Assembly: GCF_900099925.1 (NCBI RefSeq)
Contig: NZ_FNDE01000024.1
Coordinates: 1 to 50,194, forward strand
Length of the DNA stretch: 50,194 nucleotides
Source: Aneurinibacillus thermoaerophilus
GTDB taxonomy: Bacteria; Bacillota; Bacilli; Aneurinibacillales; Aneurinibacillaceae
Reading direction: 5' to 3'
Under the pieces are notes generated by a model. That model ran no database searches. It was not told the origin of the DNA and saw only the letters and a program-made list of their open reading frames with translations. Every line of letters begins with the position of its first letter. Position 1 is the first letter of the stretch. Position numbers and translations under genes: made by a program. Positions 46,357 to 49,612 of the stretch are shown in pieces.

Positions 46357-48027
46357 GTGAGTATAGTTGAGCAAACGAAAAATAAAATCATTGATCAGAT
46401 TAAGCAAGCGGTTGTTGCAGCCGGCATTGCAGAAGCGGAGAAAATTCCAGATTTTGTTTTGGAATTGCCGAAAGACAAGCAGCACGGCGACTACGCGACC
46501 AATGTGGCGATGCAACTGACGCGCATTGCGCGGAGAAACCCGCGCCAGATTGCGGAAGAAATCGTAGCGCAGTTCGATAAACAGGCGGCCAGCATTTCCA
46601 GAATTGAAATTGCGGGGCCAGGCTTTATTAATTTCTTTATGGATAATAGCTATTTGACCGGCGTGATTGGCCAGATTATTGAAGCAGGAGACAATTATGG
46701 CCGCACGAATGCCGGTAAAGGCAAGAAAGTGCAGGTCGAGTTTGTGAGCGCGAATCCGACCGGCAGCCTGCATCTGGGACACGCCCGTGGCGCGGCGTTT
46801 GGCGATGCGCTATGCAATGTGCTTGAGATGGCGGGTTACAATGTGTCGCGCGAATATTACATTAATGATGCTGGCAACCAGATTGCTAATTTAGCGCGTT
46901 CGCTTGAGGCGCGTTACTTCCAAGCGCTTGGCATGGATGCGGAAATGCCGGAAGACGGCTATTACGGTCAGGATATTATTGAATTTGGGAAAGAGCTTGC
47001 GGAAAAGGACGGCGACAAATATGCCAGAATGTCCCCGGAAGAGCGCTTTGCGTTTTTCCGCAACTGGGGCCGCGACAAAGAATTGGAAAAGATTAAAAAA
47101 GACCTTGCTGATTTTCGTGTGAAATTCGATGAATGGTTCAGTGAGACTTCACTGTATGAGAGCGGTGCAGTCGAAAAGATCGTGGAGATGCTTCGTGAAA
47201 AGGGATACGTATACGAAAAAGACGGGGCGGTCTGGTTGCGTTCAACTGCGTTTGGTGATGACAAAGATCGCGTGCTTATTAAGCAGGACGGCACGTACAC
47301 ATATTTGACGCCGGACATTGCATACCACGAAAATAAGTTCCAGCGCGGTTTTGATCAGCTGATTAATATTTGGGGTGCTGACCACCACGGTTATATTCCA
47401 CGGATGAAAGCAGCCATGCAGTGCTTGGGTTACGATCCGGAGCGGCTTGTCGTATTGATCAACCAAATGGTAAGTCTCTATCAGGGCGGCGAAAAAGTAA
47501 AGATGTCTAAGCGTACTGGTAAAGCAGTCACAATGCGCGACTTGATGGAAGAAGTAGGAACGGACGCGACCCGGTATTTCTTTACGATGCGTAGCCAGGA
47601 TGCTCACCTCGATTTTGATATGGATTTGGCCGTATCAAAATCGAACGAAAACCCAGTATTCTATGTACAGTATGCTCACGCTCGCATTTGCAGCATTTTC
47701 CGCCAGGCGGATGAGCAGGGAATTACGCTCGATACGACAAAAGCTGACTTTAACCGCATGACCGGCGAGAAAGAGATTGATTTGCTGAAGCATTTGGGCG
47801 AATTTCCGGAAGAAGTGGCCGGAGCCGCAGAAATGCTTGCACCGCATCGTGTTGTGCGCTATGCGCATGATTTGGCGTCTCTGTTGCACAGTTTCTACAA
47901 CGCGGAACGCGTGATTACAGACGATGAAGGACTAACGCACGCGCGTCTCGCGCTGATGAAAGCAGTAAAAATTACGCTCGTCAATGCCCTGCGCTTAATC
48001 GGTGTCTCCGCACCGGAAAGAATGTAA
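46357..48027 (+). CDS. argS: Arginyl-tRNA synthetase
   Basis: A 556-residue class I synthetase charging tRNA-Arg. It has the N-terminal additive domain ([20 protein letters not shown]), HIGH-type motif ([20 protein letters not shown]), KMSK loop ([20 protein letters not shown]) and the anticodon-binding DALR domain at the end. GTG 46357 follows TAAGGAGG. The 184 bases before it hold no recognisable T-box; a CATAATC/GATTATG pair is seen near 46260-46295. Confidence 0.96.
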
Positions 48028-48037
48028 GTTATTCCAG

Positions 48038-48152
48038 AAAAACAGGTAGAAACATTTGTCTGCATTTCTTCTACAAAGAGGTAACGCTTTTACCGCAAAA
48101 TGATGTAACAAATGGAAGGAGTGAGGACTTTATCGTTCTACCTGTTTTTATT
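48038..48152 (+). terminator. Probable argS terminator with long loop
   Basis: AAAAACAGGTAGAA (48038-48051) is perfectly complementary to TTCTACCTGTTTTT (48136-48149), with T-rich sequence after. The 84-base loop is unusually long for a terminator. Confidence 0.6.
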
Positions 48153-48372
48153 TTGGTATAGGAAAGCATATGTCACAAGCGTTGATTAACTAATCATTTC
48201 CTTTCGATATACGCTGGATTATTTCTTTGTTCTATGCATAAAAATTCAAAAATACTTATTCTCACTTCAGCCGGCAAAAGGTTTCGTTTCCACAAACGAG
48301 TAAAGTGTAAAAAGGAAGCTGCTCTAGTCCGCAGGATTATTTCCAATAAAAGCAAGGTTATGACCTATTTTT

Positions 48373-48548
48373 AGGGGTAGAAGTAGCATCTATTGATTTT
48401 GGGGCCATCTCCTTAGTAAAACGCTAATTTACCACGCTAGTCCTCGTTAGTAGCTTCTGTCGGCCTTAACGTGGTAAATCTGCGTTTTGCTGGTGCTATT
48501 TCTTTTTCACGCATGGCCCCAAAATGGACGAATGCTACCTCTACCCCT
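48373..48548. repeat. Long imperfect palindrome, about 176 bp
   Basis: Five matched stems nest: AGGGGTAGA (48373-48381) with 48540-48548; GTAGCAT (48383-48389) with 48532-48538; ATTTTGGGGCCAT (48396-48408) with 48513-48525; AAAACGC (48418-48424) with 48482-48488; ATTTACCACG (48427-48436) with 48470-48479; loop 48437-48469. Internal loops have equal or similar lengths on both sides. It fits a non-autonomous palindromic element or a structured RNA. No target duplication is clear. Confidence 0.75.
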
Positions 48549-48752
48549 TTTACACGTATCTCGGTTGCGCTTTATGCAAATGTATCAAGTCACATACTAA
48601 ACATTTGAAAGCAGAACAGGAATTTTTGTTTAGGTACTCCAACACCGTGTAAACACAATATATTGACCTCTTACTACTTCATGGCAATCATTCCTTTCTT
48701 GTTTATGCGTCTGCATCCCGACTGCATTTATCAACGCATTTTCCCTCCCAAT

Positions 48753-48786
48753 AAAAAAGCCGCATCCAAAGGGAAGCGGCTATTTG
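48753..48786 (-). terminator. Terminator reading leftwards
   Basis: On the minus strand AGCCGC pairs with GCGGCT, then TTTTTTAT. It is placed to end transcripts from the immunity-like gene (stop at 48958). Confidence 0.65.
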
Positions 48787-48957
48787 ATTTATTCGGTTGT
48801 CCTTAGTTTATCATGCTGTAATCTAGACAAGTAAAAAGTGTCGGAAGTGTCGGTTTTTAACACTCGTCGCGAGAAAGTTTTTTTGACTACAATAAATACA
48901 TGAGTAAAAGTTGTAGTACCTATTTATCAAGGTGAACATTCGAATCAAAATATAATA

Positions 48958-49545
48958 CTAATACTCATTGGTTATACTATGTAAATCGGAAATTCTAGAA
49001 ATAAAGGAATCCTTCTTATCTTTAGAAAATAATATATGAACGTATAAACCATCCATATCCCTAACTAGTATATAATCGAGCTTTTTTAATAATATAATTG
49101 TTTCTGATAAACAAGATTGATTCGTGGGATAGAACTTTGCTAAATCAAAGGATACTTCTTCTTTTGGTGAGTATAACCAAATATCGTACTCATATTCTCC
49201 TTTCCAAGTATATTGAAGAAATTCCCAGAGTCTTTCTTTAGGAATCCTATATTGAAGAGTATGAATATGACCATAAGGTTCAATAGAATTTACGTGGTTC
49301 AGCAAGTCAAAATGAGATAAATCCTCACGTATTGTAACCATATCCTTATCTAGGCAAGAAATTACAAAAATATAGCTGTTTTCATTAAAAATCCTTTCCA
49401 TAATAGTTACTAGTTTATTTATAGTTTTTTCATCCGATACTAGGTTACCTTGCTTATACCCAAAATCAATAGTAAGTACTTGTTGATCCTGAAAATTTGT
49501 AAAGTGACTAGGATAGTAAAAAATGGGTTGGTGTTCATTATTCAT
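48958..49545 (-). CDS. Putative immunity protein, unknown family
   Basis: A 195-residue AT-rich soluble protein: MNNEHQPIFYYPSHFTNFQD, FVISCLDKDMVTIREDLSHF, WEFLQYTWKGEYEYDIWLYS, DYILVRDMDGLYVHILF. I do not recognise the family. Its place right after a toxin-like C-terminal stub in the same direction, its size, composition and the tyrosine/aspartate-rich surface fit the immunity genes that follow polymorphic toxins. A good GGAGG lies about 9 bases before ATG 49545. Function inferred from context only. Confidence 0.6.
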   Translation of the reverse strand: MNNEHQPIFYYPSHFTNFQDQQVLTIDFGYKQGNLVSDEKTINKLVTIMERIFNENSYIFVISCLDKDMVTIREDLSHFDLLNHVNSIEPYGHIHTLQYRIPKERLWEFLQYTWKGEYEYDIWLYSPKEEVSFDLAKFYPTNQSCLSETIILLKKLDYILVRDMDGLYVHILFSKDKKDSFISRISDLHSITNEY

Positions 49546-49582
49546 AATTTTTGATATGCCTCCTCTCCATGTAAACCGAAAA

Positions 49583-49612
49583 TAGAATCATAGCACTTAT
49601 ACTATGATTCTA
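49583..49612 (-). terminator. Hairpin between toxin stub and immunity-like gene
   Basis: TAGAATCATAG pairs perfectly with CTATGATTCTA (11 bp), followed by TTTTCGG on the minus strand. It could stop or weaken transcription between the two genes, or separate the immunity gene's own promoter. Confidence 0.55.

Follow-up and report, generated by a model that had tools for sequence, protein, structure and literature searches.

The long palindrome that follows the argS gene in Aneurinibacillus thermoaerophilus raises a simple question: is it a mobile element, a structured RNA or something else? In a 50,194-nt stretch of this genome (hereafter, the window), a preliminary description based on the nucleotide sequence had noted a multi-stem palindrome of 176 bp at positions 48373-48548, assigned it to no known family and suggested either a palindromic MITE or a structured RNA. 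We reanalyzed this locus and compared the palindrome with the genomes of the same class, with plasmids and with phages. The element is very probably a non-autonomous miniature transposon of the Tn3 family, that is, a MITE of the TIME type, and, by sequence comparison, its stems consist of the ends of Tn3-family transposons arranged in two tiers, with the inner tier enclosed by the outer one.

The palindrome and its surroundings

The palindrome itself is real: the predicted RNA fold of positions 48373-48548 contains 65 base pairs and has a free energy of -80.8 kcal/mol compared to a mean of -42.95 (sd 4.13) for shuffled sequences (z -9.16), with none of the 200 shuffles being equally stable, and the DNA fold reaches -41.5 kcal/mol. 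The perfect 13-bp stem ATTTTGGGGCCAT is present as described, and no ORF of at least 60 aa, the minimum length in the ORF list, overlaps the palindrome, in agreement with the original claim that it contains no ORF. The internal loops, in contrast, had been described as balanced, which the arms are not fully: when these are aligned to each other, the right arm shows a 17-nt insertion and the left arm a 2-nt insertion, a net difference of 15 nt. A scan of the whole 50-kb window for inverted pairs with arms of at least 24 nt located at most 400 nt apart reported four pairs, two of which belong to the palindrome: its outer arms are 36 nt long and 83% complementary, and its inner arms measure 25 nt with 84% complementarity.

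An exact 5-bp duplication, TTTTA/TTTTA, is located immediately outside the GGGG...CCCC termini, and therefore we take the mobile unit to consist of 174 bp (48374-48547), slightly less than the 176 bp originally delineated, with the outermost A/T pair of the palindrome being part of the target duplication. The probability of such a 5-bp match arising by chance is 0.0014 as estimated from nucleotide composition and 0.0017 as estimated empirically (220 of the 133,156 place comparisons within the intergenic flanks).

The element lies approximately 345 bp past the end of argS (48027); on its other side, an ORF on the opposite strand (48958-49545) yielded no match to Pfam at E 0.001. The closest argS locus detected is that of Aneurinibacillus danicus, whose gene shares 92% identity with the one in the window in the best segment; in the search for an empty site, nothing downstream of argS was alignable in either A. 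danicus or a MAG. The MAG contig (L014:4500-8645) contains argS twice, in opposite orientations, probably an assembly artefact.

Several other repeats were observed in this window. A second long hairpin, with the arms AAAAACAGGTAGAA / TTCTACCTGTTTTT, is located just past argS (48028-48225; -52.9 kcal/mol for the whole stretch) and might represent the terminator region of argS. A short repeat around AGGAAAGCATATG adjoining TTTTATTTTGGTATA (48142-48174) is found also at two sites elsewhere in the same genome (G000:C16:24897 and G000:C44:29004) and at one site in a congener (G002:C224:6940), and the same AGGAAAGCATATG core is contained in a 29-nt inverted pair at 1700-1763; these repeats have the appearance of a small family of palindromic repeats in this genus.

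Two types of Tn3-family ends

The preliminary description knew of no family with this sequence, but one can be named: the arms correspond to two types of ends from transposons of the Tn3 family. A pattern derived from the outer arm (type A; up to 2 mismatches) matches 10 of the 398 genomes of the class, including the host of the element, with 0 matches for the reversed control. In four of these genomes, type-A ends form close inverted pairs that bracket 7,254 (G212), 13,046 (G292), 3,892 (G301) and 7,298 bp (G256). Exact 5-bp duplications flank three of the four pairs (TTTGC in G292, TAAAA in G301 and TTACA in G256); the pair in G212 is flanked by AGTTT and AAACT, with no matching duplication. 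Compared to the eight ends of these longer elements, with 2,000 dinucleotide shuffles per comparison here and for the inner arms, the left outer arm yields alignment scores of 32-45 (highest shuffle score, 27) and the right outer arm scores of 33-55 (highest shuffle score, 26), such that, for either arm, none of the shuffles reaches any of the eight observed scores.

Of the four known longer type-A elements, the two that were compared to Pfam both encode a Tn3-type transposase, a 989-aa protein in G212 and a 993-aa protein in G256, which match DDE_Tnp_Tn3 (PF01526) with E-values of 1.4e-139 and 4.3e-137, respectively, as well as DUF4158; the plasmid proteins that best match the G256 protein are mostly annotated as Tn3 family transposases. 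Both elements also carry a tyrosine-recombinase (PF00589) gene, a fragment of which is present in the G301 element. In their gene content, they thus resemble the Tn3 transposons with TnpI-type tyrosine resolvases, which are represented by only 3 of the 190 Tn3 members surveyed, Tn4430, Tn5401 and TnBth4, according to the available part of that survey (PMC7157771); the miniature element differs from these transposons in having neither a transposase nor a recombinase gene. The 3.9-kb G301 element (G301:C4:61483-65374), as judged by eye, contains no transposase-sized Tn3 frame but includes a 706-aa metal-ATPase-like frame and an ArsR-like frame; a nested 38-bp Tn3-type end is located on its right side. 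The motif TAAG, which closes type-B and related repeats, is absent from the end of the type-A repeat. For solo type-A ends (21 ends at 19 loci), no inverted partner was clearly above 20 simple shuffles each, with three ends exceeding the highest shuffle by 1 point only.

The inner arms are similar to a different repeat (type B). In the congener G002, the inner arm matches contig C48 twice, in opposite orientations, at the ends of a 7.9-kb element with inverted ends of 234 nt (88% complementary), an AAAAA/AAAAA target duplication, a serine resolvase and a Tn3 transposase domain (3e-155), the frame of which is apparently split over two overlapping frames. The 38-bp repeat of this transposon, GGGGTACCGCCAGCAAAACGCGGATTTACAACGTTAAG, can be aligned with both inner arms, over 35 nt in the case of the right arm and 25 nt in that of the left. 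The right copy scores 48 (highest of the 2,000 shuffle scores, 26), whereas the left copy, in which erosion has affected the outer ~11 nt, shows by itself only weak similarity to type B. A 38-bp Tn3-repeat pattern also matches the right copy, with 3 mismatches; however, at this threshold, approximately one reversed-control match per genome is obtained, and because 31 real matches were found in 7 genomes compared to 8 for the reversed control, such a match alone proves little. The assignment of the inner tier is based, accordingly, on the alignment, the shuffle scores and the inverted-pair scan. Unlike the G002 transposon, the palindrome retains the ends only, with altered tips: the right copy has GAAA in place of the GGGG tip and the left one is eroded, so that cleavage at the inner ends is probably no longer possible. 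An inner 5-bp duplication is not recognizable when the sequence is inspected by eye.

Table 1. Coordinates in the window of the parts of the 174-bp element and its target duplication
Feature	Position	Strand	Basis
Target-site duplication TTTTA, left	48369..48373	+	Sequence reading and comparison; chance 0.0014 / 0.0017
Outer inverted repeat, type A, left copy	48374..48408	+	27-30 of 35 positions identical to eight ends of four longer elements
Inner inverted repeat, type B, left copy	48415..48439	+	Score 25, shuffle maximum 22 (2000 shuffles)
Central stretch between the inner arms (apical loop region)	48440..48464	.	Sequence
Inner inverted repeat, type B, right copy (38 nt)	48465..48502	-	Alignment to the 38-bp repeat of the G002:C48 transposon
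Outer inverted repeat, type A, right copy	48513..48547	-	27-32 of 35 positions identical to the eight type-A ends
Target-site duplication TTTTA, right	48548..48552	+	Sequence reading, comparison and chance estimate

Type-B ends appear to be widespread, given that the 68-nt end of the G002 element has matches in 400 plasmid records, 267 of these from Enterococcus. Inverted pairs of the inner-arm match were also observed at G372:C49:3103-9076 (~6 kb) and G248:C1:267742-268730 (~1 kb); these are probably further type-B elements.

Distribution and recurrence of nested ends

The exact 174-bp element is known here only once. The host genome, a draft of 103 contigs, contains one complete copy and one partial match of 35 nt, which rules out a dispersed high-copy repeat. 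A second complete element was detected neither in 60 relatives nor in 23 genomes of the family of G301, although the sensitivity of the latter search with the whole element as the query was limited because it missed the known type-A ends in G256 and G336; the same query against 10 genomes of the family of G212 similarly missed the type-A carriers G212, G203 and G292. A strict pattern combining both types of ends was matched by the window element but by none of the 397 other genomes of the class. Phage sequences yielded no match to the element, and plasmids only short partial matches in 5 records.

The preliminary description proposed a test in which multiple copies would speak for mobility and a single copy against it. 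The element is indeed single-copy, but this logic is misleading because the 5-bp duplication and the homology of the ends to those of transposons both point to past mobility and because TIMEs are reported to be present, as a rule, in a single copy (PMC4133298).

In the host draft genome, we found 0 matches to the Tn3 transposase domain PF01526, which was matched in 6 of the 10 other genomes included in that domain search, and a type-A protein query also returned 0 matches. The same genome contains a solo type-A end (G000:C7:39072) and two 38-bp Tn3-like repeats, G000:C95:43616 (1 mismatch) and G000:C44:2988 (2 mismatches), suggesting that Tn3-family elements probably once visited it.

Composite ends, in which a type-A end is followed within 250 nt inward by an equally oriented 38-bp repeat resembling type B (up to 5 mismatches), account for 4 of the 18 type-A ends scanned, a set that includes both arms of the window element and a count made without a shuffle control. 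These four are the right arm of the window element, one end in G301 (0 mismatches) and two copies in G005, which we count as one lineage. The G005 copies (C4:2092682-2092822 and C4:4122728-4122868) share a 141-bp stretch, 97% identical between the two sites, in which the type-A end comes first and is directly abutted by the 38-bp type-B-like end; no inverted partner was found for either copy (20 simple shuffles each). Given the recurrence of composite ends in G301 and G005, Tn3-type ends seem to have become nested on more than one occasion.

A probable nested miniature element of the Tn3 family

The combination of Tn3-homologous terminal repeats, a 5-bp AT-rich direct duplication, short length, absence of a transposase or any other gene, presence in one copy and a long stem-loop predicted in silico links the 174-bp element to TIMEs, which the accessible portions of the two reports (PMC4133298, PMC13367494) describe as miniature derivatives of Tn3 transposons that contain no ORF, have 38-bp repeats and 5- or 6-bp duplications, and are predicted to fold as RNA with free energies between about -70 and -115 kcal/mol. 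In contrast to the TIMEs described there, in which one repeat pair surrounds a core, the element from A. thermoaerophilus is almost wholly palindromic because a second, different Tn3-type repeat pair lies inside the first one. The hosts differ as well, Bacilli in this case and mostly Pseudomonas and Enterobacteriaceae in the case of the TIMEs covered by those portions. A limited search of the literature found no open-access paper on TIMEs together with Bacillus and Firmicutes; a paper on Bacillus cereus mobile elements (PMC6542083) is available, cited here for its subject. Among the open-access matches listed in this search for Tn3 miniature elements, for pairs of Aneurinibacillus, MITE and Tn3, and for nested or palindromic Tn3 MITEs, the titles and abstract openings do not describe this element.

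From the duplication and the end homology, we infer that the element moved in the past and propose the following order of nesting. Binding of the outer repeats by a type-A Tn3 transposase provided in trans would have led, through replicative paste-and-copy transposition, to insertion of the element into the T-rich sequence that separates argS from the following gene. The two ends that form the inner tier would be left over from a type-B element that was formerly located between the type-A ends and whose middle was lost later; as a result, the two tiers would now read as one long palindrome. Considering that no Tn3 transposase gene is detectable in the draft genome, this copy is now probably stranded. 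A different history of the same kind of element, in which a complete type-B TIME jumped into a type-A TIME such that two independent miniature elements were combined, is compatible with the organization of both tiers as inverted pairs and with the recurrence of type-B-like ends within type-A ends in G301 and G005. Nevertheless, we consider this history unlikely, if well worth keeping in mind, because the inner unit lacks GGGG tips and a recognizable duplication of its own, and because the repeats in G005 abut directly.

Explanations unrelated to transposition fare worse. A structured non-coding RNA or a regulatory element downstream of argS, such as a large terminator, an attenuator or an sRNA, would be consistent with the very stable fold and the intergenic location, but is very improbable given that, in a search against Rfam 15 in the E-value mode, the best two matches in 47900-49200 (E 0.29 and 4) miss the palindrome and are far under the gathering scores. 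Furthermore, a scan of the region 47900-49600 detected no intrinsic terminator (a short GC-rich stem with a T run), with 0 terminator-like sites compared to 1.2 expected, and two promoter-like sites, fewer than in the shuffles; the sequence following argS cannot be aligned in A. danicus, and the arms are already accounted for by transposon ends. Thus, of the two options in the preliminary description, the palindromic MITE appears to be the right one, whereas the Rfam search, the terminator scan and the A. danicus locus lend no support to the RNA. It is even harder to believe that the palindrome is a cruciform-forming or integron-type recombination site, or a palindromic repeat of the REP/BCR kind, unrelated to Tn3: the long, imperfect palindrome with bulges and its DNA fold would be consistent with such a site, but the Tn3-type ends, the target duplication and the lack of a second complete copy in the genome all argue against this possibility.

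Within the preferred interpretation of the palindrome as a miniature Tn3-family transposon, one could further speculate, as a rather improbable extension, that the element has dual specificity, with the outer tier cut and moved by one Tn3 transposase and the inner tier still binding a second one. If so, a gene-less element of 174 bp would respond to two Tn3 subfamilies at once or, alternatively, confer transposition immunity against both, and the A-then-B end in G005 would be a selected composite end rather than the result of chance nesting.

The element does not change the view of how transposition works, but its double-tier architecture is an addition to the TIME class. What was an unexplained hairpin can now be read as a record of Tn3-family transposons, preserved in a genome without a detectable Tn3 transposase. 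TIME-like elements are easily overlooked during annotation, and other TIMEs have been published to bracket and mobilize adjacent genes; recognition of the two repeat types helps in finding further such elements in Bacilli.
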